Origin: Desulfuromonadales bacterium
Lineage (GTDB): Bacteria > Desulfobacterota > Desulfuromonadia > Desulfuromonadales > Syntrophotaleaceae
DNA: 32,993 bases
NCBI GenBank assembly: GCA_013619105.1
Contig: JABXKU010000023.1
Coordinates: forward strand, 1-32,993
Reading direction: 5' to 3'
Numbering within the stretch: position 1 is the first letter of the stretch; the number at the start of each line of letters is the position of its first letter. The position numbers and the translations under genes were made by a program. A model generated the notes under the pieces. It worked only from the letters and a program-made list of their open reading frames with translations, did no database searches and was not told where the DNA came from. Positions 5,121 to 28,576 of this stretch are shown in pieces.

Positions 5121-6152
5121 TTAACCCTTACCGCTGAGACGGTGTACACATTCGACTAGAAAAGCTGCTTTTTCTGGAGCTACAGTCGGCACAATGCCAT
5201 GCCCCAGATTGAAAACATGTCCAGGCCGACCAGCGTTTTCATCAAGAATGCGCTGAACTTCTCTTTCGATGATCGCTTCCGGTGCAAAGAGTACTGCTGG
5301 ATCGAGATTTCCCTGAACCGCCATCCCGGTTCCCAGTTGGTCGCGAGCCTGTCCCAAAGAAGTGAACCAGTCGAGACCGACCACTTGGCCACCAGCCTGT
5401 TTCACAGTATCCAGCATGGTGCCAGCCCCCTTGACAAAGTGGATGATGGGCACTCCTCGTCCTTCAAGGGCGGCAATCAACCGGCGGCTGTAAGGCAGCA
5501 CAAAAGCTTGATAATCGGTAGGCGAAAGAATGCCCCCCCACGTATCGAAAATCTGAATGGCCTCGGCGCCAGCATCGATTTGTGCGCTCAAGTAGCGGTA
5601 ACTTGTTTCGGTAATCTTGTCCATAAGGGCCGCATAGACCTCCGGCGCCTGATACATGAGACGTTTGACACTGGCAAAATCCTTACTGCCACGGCCTTCG
5701 ACCATATAGCAAGCCAGAGTAAAGGGAGCGCCCCCGAAACCGATCAGCGGTACCCTGCCCTGCAATTCCTGGCGCAGCAGACGAATCGTCTCATAGACAA
5801 AAGGAACCTCTTCCTGAACTTCGGGAACCCTCAGGGCGGCCACGGCACTTGCATCGCGCACCGGATCGCTGAACACGGGACCCGGCTCATAGCGCAACTC
5901 CAACCCCATCGCTTCGATCGGTATGAGAATGTCGGAGAAGAGAATGGCGGCATCGACTCCCAGGATATCGATCGGCTGGATGGTGACTTCGGCTGCCAGT
6001 TCAGGAGTCTTACAGAGCTCAAGAAAGCTGAGTTTGGAGCGGATAGCCATGTACTGGGGTAGATACCGGCCGGCCTGACGCATCAACCAAATAGGAGTTC
6101 GCACCGTCGGTCGCCCCCAGCAGGCCTCAATGAAATCGTATTGAATAGTCAT
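5121..6152 (-). CDS. hemE: uroporphyrinogen decarboxylase
   Basis: A 343-aa protein, the usual length for the family. It removes four acetate carboxyl groups from uroporphyrinogen III to give coproporphyrinogen III. Signatures: RTPIWLMRQAGRYLPQY near residues 18-34 (substrate-binding Arg pair), ILFSDILIP with the essential Asp, GFGGAPFTLACYMVEG in the middle and FNLGHGI near the C-terminus. I took the ATG at 6150-6152, preceded by AGGAA and matching the family start; the frame is open 59 codons further upstream but that part overlaps the preceding gene. It begins 10 nt after the radical SAM gene stop and continues into hemH. Confidence 0.95.
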   Translation of the reverse strand: MTIQYDFIEACWGRPTVRTPIWLMRQAGRYLPQYMAIRSKLSFLELCKTPELAAEVTIQPIDILGVDAAILFSDILIPIEAMGLELRYEPGPVFSDPVRDASAVAALRVPEVQEEVPFVYETIRLLRQELQGRVPLIGFGGAPFTLACYMVEGRGSKDFASVKRLMYQAPEVYAALMDKITETSYRYLSAQIDAGAEAIQIFDTWGGILSPTDYQAFVLPYSRRLIAALEGRGVPIIHFVKGAGTMLDTVKQAGGQVVGLDWFTSLGQARDQLGTGMAVQGNLDPAVLFAPEAIIEREVQRILDENAGRPGHVFNLGHGIVPTVAPEKAAFLVECVHRLSGKG

Positions 6153-6162
6153 AACACCGTTC

Positions 6163-7245
6163 CTATGATTGACGACCGATTGAGGCCGGAGGTTGATAGT
6201 TACAGAAAGGTTCCTCGGCCAGATAATCGCCATGAATCGCATCGGCCCTTGCCCGGCAACCGCCGCAAACCTGCAGATATTCGCAGACCCCGCACTTGCC
6301 ACGGTAGAGGCTGAAATCACGCAATTCATTCAATAGCGGAGCATTAAACCAAAGGTCCTTGAAAGAGCGCTGCTTGACGTTTCCGGCGTTGGTTGGAAAG
6401 TAGGAACAAGGCTTGAGGTTGCCATAGGCATCGATCAGGCAGATGCTCTGCCCGGCCAGACAGCCCTTGCCTCCTCCTGTGGAAAAGGACAGACTCCGTC
6501 GCTCATAAGAAATCTTGGAAGCTCGTGCCAATTGTGGAGCGATACGATAATAGTGGGGGGCGCAGGTGGGACGCATGAGAATCTCGGTTTCTTGACACTC
6601 CTGATGGAAATGCCAGGTGAGAATCTCTTCGTAATCTTCCGGTGAGATCAACTCGTCCATGATTTCCTTACCACGACCCGTCGGCACGATCATAAACAGG
6701 TACCAGGCAACCGCACCCAACTCTTTAGCCAGTCGAAAGGTTTCAACAATATCGCTCTGATTCCGGCGGGTAAAGGAAGAATTAATCAGAAACTTGATGC
6801 CATGACGCTTGAGCGTGTGAGCAGCGCGAATGGTCGCATCAAAAGCGCCAGGACTCTGACGAAAGTCATCGTGCATTTCGGCGCAGGAACCATCAAGAGA
6901 AAGGGAGACCATGCGAATGCCGCAGTCAAGCATCTGTTGACAGACCTGATCGTCGACCAAGGTGCCGTTGGTCGCCATACACATGCGCAGGCCTTGCTCC
7001 GTGCCGTAACGGGCGATAGTGAAGATATCATCGCGCAGCAACGGCTCGCCACCGGACAATACAAGCACCGGCTTGGATACTTGGCAGATATCGTCGATAA
7101 GGCGAAAAGCCTCGGAGGTGGAAAAGTCTCCCTCGGCCGCATTCATATCAGACGAACAGCGGCAATGAACGCATTGCAGGTTGCAACGCTGGGTTACTTC
7201 CCAGGCGATCCACTTAGGCAAAAAAGGCTGGTCCTTGATACTCAT
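6163..7245 (-). CDS. radical SAM/SPASM protein, AhbD/NirJ-like (haem pathway)
   Basis: A 360-aa radical SAM enzyme. CxxxCxxC at Cys21, Cys25 and Cys28 binds the SAM cluster; SGGEPLL follows near residue 64. The C-terminal third is a SPASM domain with cysteines in [30 protein letters not shown] and a last FC. The segment [12 protein letters not shown] and the run [13 protein letters not shown] resemble the AhbD/NirJ group, whose members decarboxylate Fe-coproporphyrin III or process haem d1 precursors. Being first in an operon with hemE and hemH fits a haem role. AhbC, NirJ1/2 or a peptide-modifying SPASM enzyme are alternatives. A strong AAAGGAG site stands 5 nt before the ATG at 7243-7245. 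It is probably the first gene of a three-gene transcript. Confidence 0.72.
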
Positions 7246-24987: not shown

Positions 24988-26637
24988 ATGGATGAAAATC
25001 ATAGCAACCATAACAAACTTGCCAAATGCGATCATCAGAATCAAGTCTCGGCAGCCCTACTTGGTATCGGCAAACTGTTCAAGGCAGTCCGATTCTACCC
25101 ACCCGGGCATCCAGCCCTCGAGAGTACCTGCAAGGAGGCCCACAACCTTCTAAGCCCACTATTGCGACAGGGCAATCTGATACTGAGCATTAAAAAAAAT
25201 GGTTTCTACTGGCAGGGAAAACCGGTCAGCATCGAAATTCCGGTTTTAAAAACGTTAGCCTTCTATTTCTTTGCCCGGCTGGTGCATCGGCTACTGTTTC
25301 TCCCCGACCTGACAACGCGCGACCTCGAAGCCTTCGCCCGCTGTGCCATCGGTGAGCCGGCCGAGATACAACGGGCGGGAGGATTGCAAGAGCTTCTCCT
25401 GCAACAACATATTACCGGTCTGTTCCTCAATGAAATCGACCTGCAGACAGTCCAGGCCCGTCGCGAAGAGATTCTCATCGAGCAAGGGATAGATCCCGAG
25501 CTATTGGACCAGAACCCTTTTGAAGCACCCCCAGAGACGTCTTCCAGCGCCGACACAGACCATAATCTTTTGCCCGAGGCGCTCCTGGAAAACCTTACGA
25601 CAGCCCAACTAGACCCAGTGGAACTACTGCGGCAACTAGAGGGCGAGAACTCGGATCAACGCTATCGCCTACTCTGCCAGAAACTCGTCGTCATCCTCCC
25701 TGAGCACCTACACGAATCGGAATTGAGCACACCGGGTAAAGCCTTACTATTGCTGGCCAGGCACGGTGCCGAAAAGGCTCGTAACAACAACCAGCGACGC
25801 GCATGCCTGGAGGCCCTCGACCAGCTAGGCAGTCCGGAGCTGATGAAATTCTTCATCAACGCTCTATGTGACAAACACCAGCACAGCGCAGGCCGCACCG
25901 ATATCATCAAAGCCCTGTCTGTGCTGCAGGGAAAAGCGGCCGTTGTGTTGGTCGACAGACTGGCCAAAGAGGACAACAGCCAGGTACGAAAATTAATCTC
26001 CGTGGCCCTGGTCAAGCTCGGCAATTGCGCCACCCCGGCCCTTGTCGAGCGATTAGCCGACAACCGCTGGTATATTGCTCGCAATGCGATAGCCATTCTC
26101 GGCAAGATTAAGAATCGAAAAACAGCCATTCACATCCATCCCTACCTCGACCATCGCGATTACCGTGTTCGGCGAGAAGCGGTCAGAGCTTTAGGCCTCA
26201 TCGGCGGCCCCGTTGCCCTCAAGGGCCTACAGCAATTAATTAACGACCGGGACCGAGAGCTCTGTCCTCTGGCAATTGTCGCACTGGGAGCCATGCAAAA
26301 TAAAGCCGCCGTCGATCCGCTGCTCAGATTGTTGGGCTCCTTTGATCCCTTGTTGAAGAATTTTGACCTCAAGAGAAGAGCCATCAAGGCCCTTGGCGCT
26401 ATCGGCGCGCCACAAGCCGCGCCGGCCCTGATAAAGGTTCTCAAACAAAAGCGCCTCTGGAAGCGCAACCTCTACAATAAGCTGCGCAGTTGCGCAATCC
26501 AGGCTTTGGGAAACATCGCCACTGAGAAATCGCTAGAGGCCATCGAAGTTGCAAGCAAGGACCCTTCACCACTGATTGCCCATATTGCGAGGGAAGCCCT
26601 CGACAAAATATCCGCAAGGACCCAAAATGAATCCTGA
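24988..26637 (+). CDS. HEAT-repeat protein with YPxxHP N-terminal domain
   Basis: A 549-aa soluble protein. Residues about 24-152 form a domain with YPPGHP (37-42), a WQGKPV strand (75-80) and FLNEID at its end; this matches the order of features in the N-terminus of the next gene. An acidic linker (170-210) follows. From about 260 to 545 there are some eight HEAT (PBS-lyase type) repeats, each of about 30 residues with an AxxALGxIG core, for example AVRALGLIGG and AIKALGAIGA. Such repeats make protein-binding superhelices. No catalytic residues are seen. The ATG at 24988 has only a distant AGGAAGGG. It overlaps the HD-GYP gene by 11 nt, so the two products probably work together. Confidence 0.82.
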   Translation: MDENHSNHNKLAKCDHQNQVSAALLGIGKLFKAVRFYPPGHPALESTCKEAHNLLSPLLRQGNLILSIKKNGFYWQGKPVSIEIPVLKTLAFYFFARLVHRLLFLPDLTTRDLEAFARCAIGEPAEIQRAGGLQELLLQQHITGLFLNEIDLQTVQARREEILIEQGIDPELLDQNPFEAPPETSSSADTDHNLLPEALLENLTTAQLDPVELLRQLEGENSDQRYRLLCQKLVVILPEHLHESELSTPGKALLLLARHGAEKARNNNQRRACLEALDQLGSPELMKFFINALCDKHQHSAGRTDIIKALSVLQGKAAVVLVDRLAKEDNSQVRKLISVALVKLGNCATPALVERLADNRWYIARNAIAILGKIKNRKTAIHIHPYLDHRDYRVRREAVRALGLIGGPVALKGLQQLINDRDRELCPLAIVALGAMQNKAAVDPLLRLLGSFDPLLKNFDLKRRAIKALGAIGAPQAAPALIKVLKQKRLWKRNLYNKLRSCAIQALGNIATEKSLEAIEVASKDPSPLIAHIAREALDKISARTQNES

Positions 26638-27949
26638 ATTCTTTCAGCAGATTGTCACAAGCTTTACCAGTGCCTATAAAGGGTTACATCTTTACCCCGC
26701 CCAACATCCCACTATTCGAAATCAACTAAAAAAGCTGTTACTGCGCCTGACTTCCCATCTTGAACAACGAGAAATGTTGAAAATGGGCCTGTTGGAAGAT
26801 ACGTTGTTCATTGATGACCATCTGTTCGCCATTCAAACTCCGGCCAGCGCAACCCTCACCCAGCTACTGAAGCAATTAAAGATCGAAGCCCTCGAATTTC
26901 ACCGGGGCCTCACCGAAAGTGAACTGCTGCACTTTCTGCAACTATTAAGACACAGTGACATCGAACCTGAAGACCTGGAGATGTTATTGGCAGAACGAAA
27001 TATCGAACACATTCGTCTGGCAGGCGGTAATCCCGATGAAGACCAAGAACCACGCCGGGTCTATGGTCGAGCCATGACGGTTGTTAATGAAATTTTCGAA
27101 GACGTGCATTTGGGGCGTATTCCTTGCTCGAAAAAGGCCAAACAGGTCGTCAAGGATATGGCCAAACTTACCATGTCCGACCCCCATGCCCTATTTGCCC
27201 TGTCGATGCTCAAAAGCTACGACAACTACACCTTTACCCATTCAGTTAACGTCTCGGTAATCGCCTTGGCCGTCGGCCGAGCCTGTGGACTGCCCGAAGA
27301 GAAATTGCGCACCCTGGGCCTGGGCGGCCTGCTGCACGACATCGGCAAGTTGAAGATCGACCTGGCGATCATCACCAAACCAGGCCGTCTGACCGAGCAG
27401 GAATTTGCCCAGATCATGAACCACCCCCGCCTGGGGGCGGACATCGTCCACAACACCCCCGGCATTTCCCCGAGTGCGGTTGATATTGTGCTTGGCCATC
27501 ATCTTCGCTTCGATCGACAGGGCTATCCAGCCAATGCTCAACTGCATGGTCCTCCAGTAATGCCAAATATCGTCGCCATTGCCGACACCTATGATGCGAT
27601 CACCACCCTGCGCGCCTATCAGCGGCCAGTTACTCCGCGGCAAGCCATCAGCAAGATGCAAAAGGTTAGCGGCTCTATGCTTCACCCGGAGTATCTGAAA
27701 TCCTTTATTGCCTCCCTGGGCACCTATCCGGTCGGTAGTCTGGTACGCCTGGCAAATAACGAAATAGGCCTGGTGACACGGGTCGGCTCCGACAACCCGA
27801 ATGAAGTTGAACTCAAGATTCTCTTCAGCACAGACGGAAAACATCAGTTAGAACCGCACACCACACAAATGGCCAGCAGTAAAAAACATCAGATAGTGGC
27901 CGAAGTCGACAGCTTTATCAAAGGCATCAATCCGGTGGATTATTTTTAA
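26627..27949 (+). CDS. HD-GYP domain protein with YPxxHP N-terminal domain (c-di-GMP-type phosphodiesterase)
   Basis: A 440-aa protein. The N-terminal domain (about 9-134) has YPAQHP (23-28), then FIDDHLF and GLTESELLHFLQLL (94-107), ending IEHIRLAGG. The HD-GYP domain (about 190-350) keeps metal ligands His205, His237-Asp238 (LLHDIGK), His266, His291-His292 and Asp320 (IADTYDA). The signature is HHLRFDRQGYP (291-301) against the usual HHExxDGxGYP: GYP is kept, Glu and the first Gly are not. HD-GYP enzymes usually open cyclic di-GMP to GMP; activity here needs proof. The C-terminus has YPVGSLVRL. Start at 26627 follows AAGGA, within the preceding gene. Confidence 0.87.
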   Translation: MNPEFFQQIVTSFTSAYKGLHLYPAQHPTIRNQLKKLLLRLTSHLEQREMLKMGLLEDTLFIDDHLFAIQTPASATLTQLLKQLKIEALEFHRGLTESELLHFLQLLRHSDIEPEDLEMLLAERNIEHIRLAGGNPDEDQEPRRVYGRAMTVVNEIFEDVHLGRIPCSKKAKQVVKDMAKLTMSDPHALFALSMLKSYDNYTFTHSVNVSVIALAVGRACGLPEEKLRTLGLGGLLHDIGKLKIDLAIITKPGRLTEQEFAQIMNHPRLGADIVHNTPGISPSAVDIVLGHHLRFDRQGYPANAQLHGPPVMPNIVAIADTYDAITTLRAYQRPVTPRQAISKMQKVSGSMLHPEYLKSFIASLGTYPVGSLVRLANNEIGLVTRVGSDNPNEVELKILFSTDGKHQLEPHTTQMASSKKHQIVAEVDSFIKGINPVDYF

Positions 27950-27979
27950 GCAGAAGGGTAACAGCGGGAGGAGAACGAT

Positions 27980-28576
27980 TCAACAAGAAGGGGCGGAATC
28001 ATCCGATTCATCGAGGTGCAATACACCAAGAGCCTTGGCGGCCAGGGACCGCACCATAGTACGGCGGTCTTTGAGCAGAATCAGAAGATCGGCCTCAGCG
28101 GCCGGATCGGCAATGGCGGCCAAGGATCGCAAGGCACTTTTCACCAATTCTTCATCCGACTCTTGCAATAGGGCCGTTAAAAAGGGAGTGAGACGACGGT
28201 CAGAAAAGTTGCCGAGAGCTTCGGCGGCATGGACTCGAACCGCCGGATTGGGGTCTTTGAGATGTCGCACCATATACTTCAGGACTTTGACATTCTTTTT
28301 CCGACCCAAAACCTGTAGAGCGGCACCACGAACATCTGCATCCTTAGCGTTAAGTGCGGACACCAGCGGCGAAAAGGTTTTGGAACTTGTCACCTGCTCT
28401 AGAGCATAAATAGCACGAATCTGCTGATCGCGACTGCCGGATTTCAGCACTTTGGCAAGCGCGTCAAAACCTTGCACGGATTCAAGGTTTTCCAAAGCGG
28501 CTGCGGCAGCTTCGCGCACACAAAGTTCCTCATCGCTGAGCGCTGCGACCAGGCCTTTTTTTCGTCTTTCAAGCAT
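27980..28576 (-). CDS. small HEAT-repeat protein
   Basis: A 198-aa protein made almost only of HEAT (PBS-lyase type) repeats, about six, with cores such as AAAALENL, AALQVLGRK, AAEALGNF, ALRSLAAI and AAKALGVL. No signal peptide, membrane helix or catalytic motif. A GGGAG site stands 5 nt before the ATG at 28574-28576; the frame runs 41 codons further upstream without support. It converges on the HD-GYP gene with 30 nt between stops. With two HEAT genes and an HD-GYP gene side by side, a shared role is likely but unproved. Confidence 0.82.
   Translation of the reverse strand: MLERRKKGLVAALSDEELCVREAAAAALENLESVQGFDALAKVLKSGSRDQQIRAIYALEQVTSSKTFSPLVSALNAKDADVRGAALQVLGRKKNVKVLKYMVRHLKDPNPAVRVHAAEALGNFSDRRLTPFLTALLQESDEELVKSALRSLAAIADPAAEADLLILLKDRRTMVRSLAAKALGVLHLDESDDSAPSC

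Follow-up and report, generated by a model that had tools for sequence, protein, structure and literature searches.

The locus described here raises the question of why a HEAT-repeat protein and an HD-GYP protein, encoded by two overlapping genes, should begin with the same kind of N-terminal domain, and whether this domain joins them into one functional unit. The genes lie in a window of 32,993 nt, i.e., the whole stretch of DNA that was analyzed, from a Desulfuromonadales bacterium (assembly GCA_013619105.1, contig JABXKU010000023.1). The initial annotation had matched the two N-termini by eye, starting from a YPxxHP motif, and had proposed that the HEAT protein scaffolds or controls the HD-GYP enzyme. 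As our analysis revealed, an old cassette is present once in the window; such cassettes comprise a HEAT gene with an HD-GYP gene overlapping it and, in many cases, a small convergent HEAT gene. Judging from the sequence data, the two domains probably bring the HEAT protein and the HD-GYP enzyme together, whereby the HEAT protein would act as a dedicated regulatory adaptor.

According to profile comparison, the HEAT protein is homologous to the HD-GYP protein over the first ca. 125 residues. When the family profile of the HEAT N-terminus (HEAT-N) was compared with that of the HD-GYP N-terminus (HD-N), a probability of 98.5 was obtained (E 1.7e-15, 124 columns), and all controls stayed below 1; these comprised one reversal and eight column permutations of the HD-N profile, five HEAT-repeat windows compared with HD-N, and four HD-domain windows compared with HEAT-N. 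On the grounds of these reversed, permuted, and unrelated-window controls, a chance likeness of the two N-termini was rejected, and the relationship that had been read by eye is borne out. Direct BLASTP of the two window sequences gave a weak match (E 6e-4, 62 aa, 21% identity), and in the joint alignment the two copies share 18% identity. Single-sequence phmmer searches crossed the families in relatives in both directions, from HEAT-N to an HD-GYP open reading frame (ORF; best 7.1e-7) and from HD-N to a HEAT ORF (best 2.3e-8). Moreover, the register proposed by eye, with NGFYWQGKPV opposite DTLFIDDHLF and LPDLTTRDLEAF opposite HRGLTESELLHF, recurred in the computed alignment. The AlphaFold2 models of the HEAT-type domain (mean predicted local distance difference test score (pLDDT) 92.9; helices and strands in the order H-H-E-E-E-H-E-H-H-H-E-H) and of the HD-type domain (mean pLDDT 92.5; H-H-E-E-H-E-H-H-E) share the order of their main helices and strands, as judged by element order, so that the two N-termini are not predicted to be of unrelated fold. 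Three elements are extra in the HEAT-type model, namely a short third strand, a helix in front of the last strand, and another helix at the very end. In outline, the domain consists of two helices with the YPxxHP turn between them, a small beta sheet, and further helices. When both families are aligned together, Y, P, H, and P are nearly invariant; in the models, they are located at the turn joining the first two helices. In the HD-type copies, G94 is nearly invariant as well.

No Pfam or NCBIfam model covers the shared domain. Pfam yielded nothing in residues 1–171 of the HEAT protein and nothing above the cut-off in residues 1–144 of the HD-GYP protein, and among 40 HEAT-type and 44 HD-type members there was no consistent match to Pfam models, including those of sensory domains (GAF, PAS, REC, CBS, and others). 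Isolated weak matches concerned DUF3944 in 5 of the 40 HEAT-type members (best E 0.028) and CBS in 1 of the 44 HD-type members (E 0.0043). Foldseek searches against the PDB with both models and against BFVD with the HD-type model returned nothing at E ≤0.001; the best E values were 0.2 and 0.15 (PelD chains, TM ~0.2), whereby such a weak match does not make the fold new. With VIA, the best Z scores were 3.4 (root-mean-square deviation (rmsd) 4.1, 72 aligned) and 3.9 (rmsd 3.9, 69 aligned), all below 4. A profile search of PDB sequences matched short stretches of 9l08_A (E 9.6e-7, query 90–129) and Octarellin V.1 (E 4.3e-5, query 68–112). Both are presumably chance matches of helical stretches, yet they count against calling the domain wholly unmatched. 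None of the PADLOC models for anti-phage defence matched the HD-GYP protein or the N-terminal domain, and only the HEAT parts were recognized (HEAT-ARM_XIII 1.4e-15, and others). Since Pfam and NCBIfam lack a model for the domain, the module goes unnoticed and is annotated by its HEAT or HD parts only. Among the matches listed in a literature search of titles and abstract openings, with subscription papers and preprints outside its scope, there was no description of this pair.

The linkage of the two genes was analyzed in a pooled and deduplicated set of loci, which includes the window and comprises 105 domain-bearing HD-GYP genes, 100 of them with upstream room and 99 with downstream room. 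A HEAT gene abuts on the same strand in 93 of the 100 loci, and 91 of these HEAT genes carry the domain, whereas 0 of 41 HD-GYP ORFs without the domain have a HEAT gene within 2.5 kb upstream. As the loci were found via the HD-GYP protein, it is the adjacency and not the occurrence of HD-GYP that constitutes the independent result; an HD-GYP match in 58 of 58 genomes of the first survey, the own genome included, is expected for any HD-GYP protein. The 41 domain-less ORFs are by-catch of the homologue search and of the fetched contexts, and many of them are beta-proteobacterial. Therefore, a same-order set was added, which consists of 20 regions with 21 HD-GYP ORFs whose match had missed the N-terminus of the window protein and which has no locus in common with the pooled set. 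The set was meant as 20 domain-less regions, but 12 of the 21 ORFs carry the domain, so that the true control amounts to nine ORFs. Each of the 12 domain-bearing ORFs has a HEAT gene directly adjoining; 11 of these HEAT genes carry the domain, and the remaining one is cut by the contig end. By contrast, none of the nine domain-less ORFs has a HEAT gene upstream. The pair is thus conserved in relatives, on which the interpretation in the initial annotation had been made to depend. In all upstream HEAT genes listed, the HEAT stop falls 12 nt before to 20 nt beyond the HD-GYP start, with HD-GYP start codons set as the ATG closest to the aligned start.

The second HEAT gene, which had been described as converging on the pair, belongs to the layout as well: it is kept in 70 of the 99 domain-bearing loci, compared to 1 of the 41 loci without the domain (L135). 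The latter is probably a cut-off member, since it starts at a contig edge and the query matches only from residue 91. The convergent gene was found beside none of the 21 HD-GYP ORFs of the same-order set. Within the window's own genome, a profile search yielded four domain copies at E ≤1, which form two pairs of adjoining HEAT and HD-GYP genes. In the second pair (L040, contig C1) the open frames overlap, and the HD-GYP start codon is ambiguous. Pairs of this second type have a longer HEAT protein and a shorter HD-GYP protein; the convergent gene was not found beside them (L040, L093–L099, and the 12 same-order loci), nor beside several distant pairs. The features of the window are listed in the following table.

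Features of the HEAT/HD-GYP cassette in the window (nucleotide positions unless stated otherwise)
Feature	Position	Strand	Remarks
HEAT-repeat gene with N-terminal YPxxHP domain	24988..26637	+	549 aa; ORF; Pfam HEAT_2 E 1e-32, HEAT_PBS 7.7e-18
Shared N-terminal domain, HEAT-type copy	25033..25461	+	Profile match 25036-25446, E 2.9e-38; window's own copies among the profile rows
HEAT-repeat superhelix	25585..26634	+	Residues 200-549 (used as profile); best Pfam stretch residues 350-423
AAGGA, plausible ribosome-binding site of HD-GYP gene	26616..26620	+	Read in sequence; within 3' end of HEAT gene
HEAT/HD-GYP gene overlap	26627..26637	+	11 nt, stop codon included
HD-GYP gene	26627..27949	+	440 aa counted from ATG; ORF; Pfam HD_5 E 5e-19
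Shared N-terminal domain, HD-type copy	26627..27043	+	Profile match 26624-27037, E 5.8e-38; window's own copies among the profile rows
HD-GYP catalytic domain	27206..27676	+	HD domain with seven metal ligands, GYP
Metal ligands of HD-GYP protein	H205 H237 D238 H266 H291 H292 D320 (protein numbering)	+	PmGH alignment
Small all-HEAT gene, convergent	27980..28576	-	198 aa; ATG at 28576; HEAT_2 and HEAT_PBS above Pfam cut-off

The pair is not confined to the window's order. With search profiles built solely from that order, pairs with the domain in each gene were identified in Methylomirabilota (L130, L133), Omnitrophota/Omnitrophica (L132, L134, L136), Geothermincola (L139), and Aerophobetes (L140), as well as in Acidimicrobiia (L147), WOR-3 (L151), Gemmatimonadetes (L176), and an unclassified bacterium (L160). 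All of these cross-phylum records are metagenome-assembled genomes (MAGs), with their affiliation as given in the record titles. In four of these pairs, one domain was recognized by a single profile only, namely the HEAT-gene copy of L147 and L160 by the HEAT-type profile and the HD-gene copy of L151 and L176 by the HD-type profile. Within the window's phylum, 66 of 148 sampled genomes contain the domain. The same holds for 20 of 25 chosen genomes of named loci; the five without it (L142, L149, L152, L161, L170) are beta-proteobacteria. Named strains with the pair include two Geomonas and one Geotalea.

A domain tree was calculated from a short alignment of 75 rows, taken from 38 chosen loci, and many of its forks are poorly resolved. 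The tree splits HEAT-type from HD-type copies with four changes each, compared to shuffled means of 24.8 for the HEAT-type and 24.1 for the HD-type, and a single clade was not rejected for either kind (HD-type p-AU 0.405; HEAT-type p-AU 0.494, with the L196 row omitted). Likewise, HEAT-type and HD-type profiles sorted 54 of 54 HEAT and 59 of 60 HD ORFs of loci L040–L099, three of which recur among the rows of the sorting profiles; one further ORF stayed untyped. The two kinds are thus separate, and the tree picture fits a history in which one old duplication would have been followed by inheritance as partners. An independent acquisition of the domain in each lineage is not favored, as in no locus of the tree do the HEAT-gene copy and the HD-gene copy group together. 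Contamination of the MAGs is not favored as a source of the cross-phylum pairs either, although all of these records are MAGs, because the two Methylomirabilota and two Omnitrophota loci form supported pairs on both the HEAT and the HD sides. It could also be that the adjacency reflects mere co-transcription within one regulon and that the shared domain is the neutral remnant of a duplication, for which the identity of only 18% between the window copies would speak. However, linkage persists in records of several phyla and on both sides of the domain tree, and the domain-less controls have no HEAT neighbor, which makes this explanation very improbable.

The domain was also identified in other architectures. 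Five open frames of 1424–1456 aa from four genomes (L193, L194 with two, L195, L197) combine a GGDEF domain with an AAA ATPase, two copies of the shared domain in tandem, and HEAT repeats, and two further such proteins (L198, L199) have one domain copy. Like the pair, these composite proteins comprise the domain, HEAT repeats, and a cyclic-dinucleotide enzyme domain; unlike the pair, they form a single chain, belong to the synthase instead of the hydrolase family, and contain the ATPase as an extra module. Their GGDEF motif reads AGDEF, AGDNF, or GADEF, and because of this deviation it is unsure whether they would act as synthases. To our knowledge, there is no family name for such proteins. 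In a 1690-aa open frame (L196:2984-8056), which adjoins a sugar-transferase gene, the domain and HEAT repeats are combined with a cyclic-nucleotide-binding domain and PilZ, and a 761-aa frame (L207) starts with the domain and ends in a weak GGDEF-like match without recognizable motif. Thus, in these architectures the domain keeps company with cyclic-dinucleotide enzymes or receptors and HEAT repeats. It is also present beside parts that Pfam does not name (L206, with no Pfam match, and the first 900 residues of L226). As a tentative generalization, the YPxxHP domain could represent an ancient pairing module of cyclic-dinucleotide signaling, whereby unlike copies would couple HEAT and HD-GYP in trans and tandem copies would serve a GGDEF synthase in cis.

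In order to deduce the state of the HD-GYP enzyme, residue roles were taken from PMC4159591 by alignment to PmGH, which in a PDB sequence search is the closest solved HD-GYP chain (4MCW, E 3.4e-17), together with 4R8Z and 5Z7C. Seven of the eight metal ligands of PmGH, the equivalents of D183 and K225, which are its putative catalytic residues (PMC4159591), and the GYP triplet are invariant in 98 of 98 domain-bearing members. The eighth ligand, E185, is Tyr in the domain-bearing members, as occurs in the Y/F subfamily of HD-GYP proteins (PMC4159591). The window protein thus has what defines the HD-GYP family, namely an HD domain with the ligands H, HD, H, HH, and D and the GYP triplet. Its signature is HHLRFDRQGYP in place of the full HHExxDGxGYP (PMC4159591), and since the strict form is not present, we regard the protein as an HD-GYP-like member of a divergent branch and keep "HD-GYP" as a short name. 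Compared to the HD-GYP phosphodiesterases PmGH (4MCW/4MDZ/4ME4) and 3'3'-cGAMP-specific phosphodiesterase 3 (5Z7C), it has the same catalytic domain (E 3.4e-17 and 5.3e-15, respectively) with seven ligands and GYP, but it differs by an N-terminal domain without Pfam model, by HH[LIMV] for HHE, and by a HEAT partner gene in nearly all loci.

On this basis, the following mechanism is proposed. The layout suggests that translation of the overlapping genes is coupled, so that both proteins would be made together. The two unlike domain copies would most likely bind each other as a heterodimer and thereby tether the HEAT solenoid to the putative HD-GYP phosphodiesterase of cyclic dinucleotides, whose substrate might be c-di-GMP or 3',3'-cGAMP. 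The HEAT solenoid could then dock a further target protein, and this docking, via the domain pair beside the catalytic domain, could place the phosphodiesterase or switch it on or off. The small HEAT protein might compete or assist. The steps from heterodimer formation to placement or switching are, taken jointly and on the strength of gene and protein sequences, on balance likely, an estimate that was left unchanged by the same-order set, since this control bears on linkage and not on binding. Pairing is favored because of the profile homology, the matching models, the near-obligate adjacency, and the two pairs in the own genome, because HEAT-type and HD-type kinds stay apart on the tree and in profile sorting, and because the seven metal ligands and the positions of the two putative catalytic residues do not vary. 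It is further favored by the composite GGDEF proteins, which present a like parts list with the opposite enzyme family in one chain. Of the original interpretation, the shared domain, the conservation of the pair, and the convergent gene have held, and scaffolding or control of the enzyme by the HEAT protein is carried on as a proposal.

Several findings weigh against such a pairing. Some domain-bearing HD-GYP genes have no HEAT gene directly beside them (L085, L086, L087, L091, L110, L143, L153); of these, L085–L087 and L091 represent second copies, with a regular pair elsewhere in the same genome. There are also domain-HEAT genes for which the profiles detected no HD-GYP neighbor (L202, L204, L211, L225, L231, L232). 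In the tandem copies of the composite proteins, no YPxxH-like motif was found, and since these copies group together on the tree and 10 of 10 score as HD-type, they would represent a parallel doubling and not a fused pair. Finally, catalysis could be altered or lost, as HHE is changed to HH[LIMV] in 94 of the 98 domain-bearing members, whereas 36 of 38 domain-less members have E at this position. The glycine of DG is replaced by Arg in 74 of the 98, compared to Gly in 36 of the 38, and motif-located ORFs of the same-order set split in the same way (HH[LIM] in 11 of 11 with the domain, HHE in 7 of 7 without). In the aligned sequences, the altered HHE signature goes with the N-terminal domain. 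These changes would also suit an HD-GYP protein that is no longer mainly an enzyme and instead serves as a cyclic-dinucleotide receptor, the bound state of which is read by the HEAT partner, and catalytically inactive HD-GYP proteins such as Bd1817 do exist (PMC4159591). We consider a receptor role distinctly unlikely, as the seven metal ligands, the D183 and K225 equivalents, and GYP are invariant in the same members that carry the change, and as Tyr for E185 matches the described Y/F subfamily. The signature probably marks a distinct active branch, although activity may instead have been lost or changed.

HD-GYP proteins commonly have an N-terminal sensory domain. It might be possible that the shared domain is likewise a sensory or ligand-binding input domain, which forms a homodimer in each protein, so that HEAT and HD-GYP would be parallel outputs of one signal without any need for contact. 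PmGH, with its GAF/HD-GYP architecture, is a homodimer (PMC4159591), and the domain also heads the proteins with PilZ (L196) or with the weak GGDEF-like match (L207), as would suit an input domain. However, a fixed gene order with overlap or near-contact and near-obligate adjacency would not be expected in this case, and a common ligand pocket would not require that the domain kinds of the partners differ in sequence. In addition, there are few near-invariant residues (the Y, P, H, and P named above, plus the HD-type G94). The sensory explanation is therefore rather unlikely, and with respect to the term "input domain" used in the initial annotation, a pairing, i.e., interaction, domain fits the evidence at least as well as ligand sensing.

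HD-GYP enzymes that carry regulatory domains at their N-terminus are already known. New in this case is a domain without a model that also occurs in a HEAT partner, together with a deep linkage of the two genes and an HHE signature that is changed along with it. From sequence, it is hard to predict which proteins are dedicated partners of HD-GYP enzymes; here, gene order, shared domain, and deep conservation point to one, and a partner gene is indicated for many environmental bacteria. If the domain is indeed a pairing module, the HEAT-repeat adaptor would be a general, overlooked type of regulatory subunit for bacterial second-messenger enzymes.

With HEAT/PBS-lyase-like repeat proteins, the window cassette has the repeats in common, both in the C-terminal part of the HEAT protein and in the small convergent protein. 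The HEAT protein differs from these by its own N-terminal domain and by its linkage to HD-GYP, and the scores with the NCBIfam models for phycobilisome lyases and NblB fall well short of the cut-offs (NblB 64.5 bits compared to 300; CpcE 46.7 compared to 330). The ends of the HD-GYP gene and of the convergent small HEAT gene are 30 nt apart. Promoter-like sites (5, compared to 2.6 ± 1.6 in shuffles) and terminator-like sites (6 and 5.0 ± 2.2, respectively) were given no weight. Behind the HD-GYP domain, residues 366–440 (27722–27946) form a conserved C-terminal extension with the motif LGxYPVGSLVRLxNNEIGLV. Several Dechloromonas and Zoogloea loci match up to residue 440 but start only at about residue 137, which suggests that the extension belongs to a wider HD-GYP subfamily.

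As for neighboring genes, second-type pairs in L040, L096, and L098 are located directly behind a same-strand response-regulator gene of the sigma-54-activator kind, the typing being based on Pfam matches of the homologue in L110. This neighbor hints at a phospho-signal that might feed into the pair. In L110 itself, a domain-bearing HD-GYP gene without HEAT partner (5504-6889) lies directly behind the sigma-54 response regulator. Two genes for domain proteins without repeats by the HEAT profile (L207:2361-3323 and L235:4097-5035) adjoin Ser/Thr protein kinase genes. The genome of Geomonas diazotrophica harbors three separate domain-bearing HEAT/HD-GYP pairs (L121, L228, L229).

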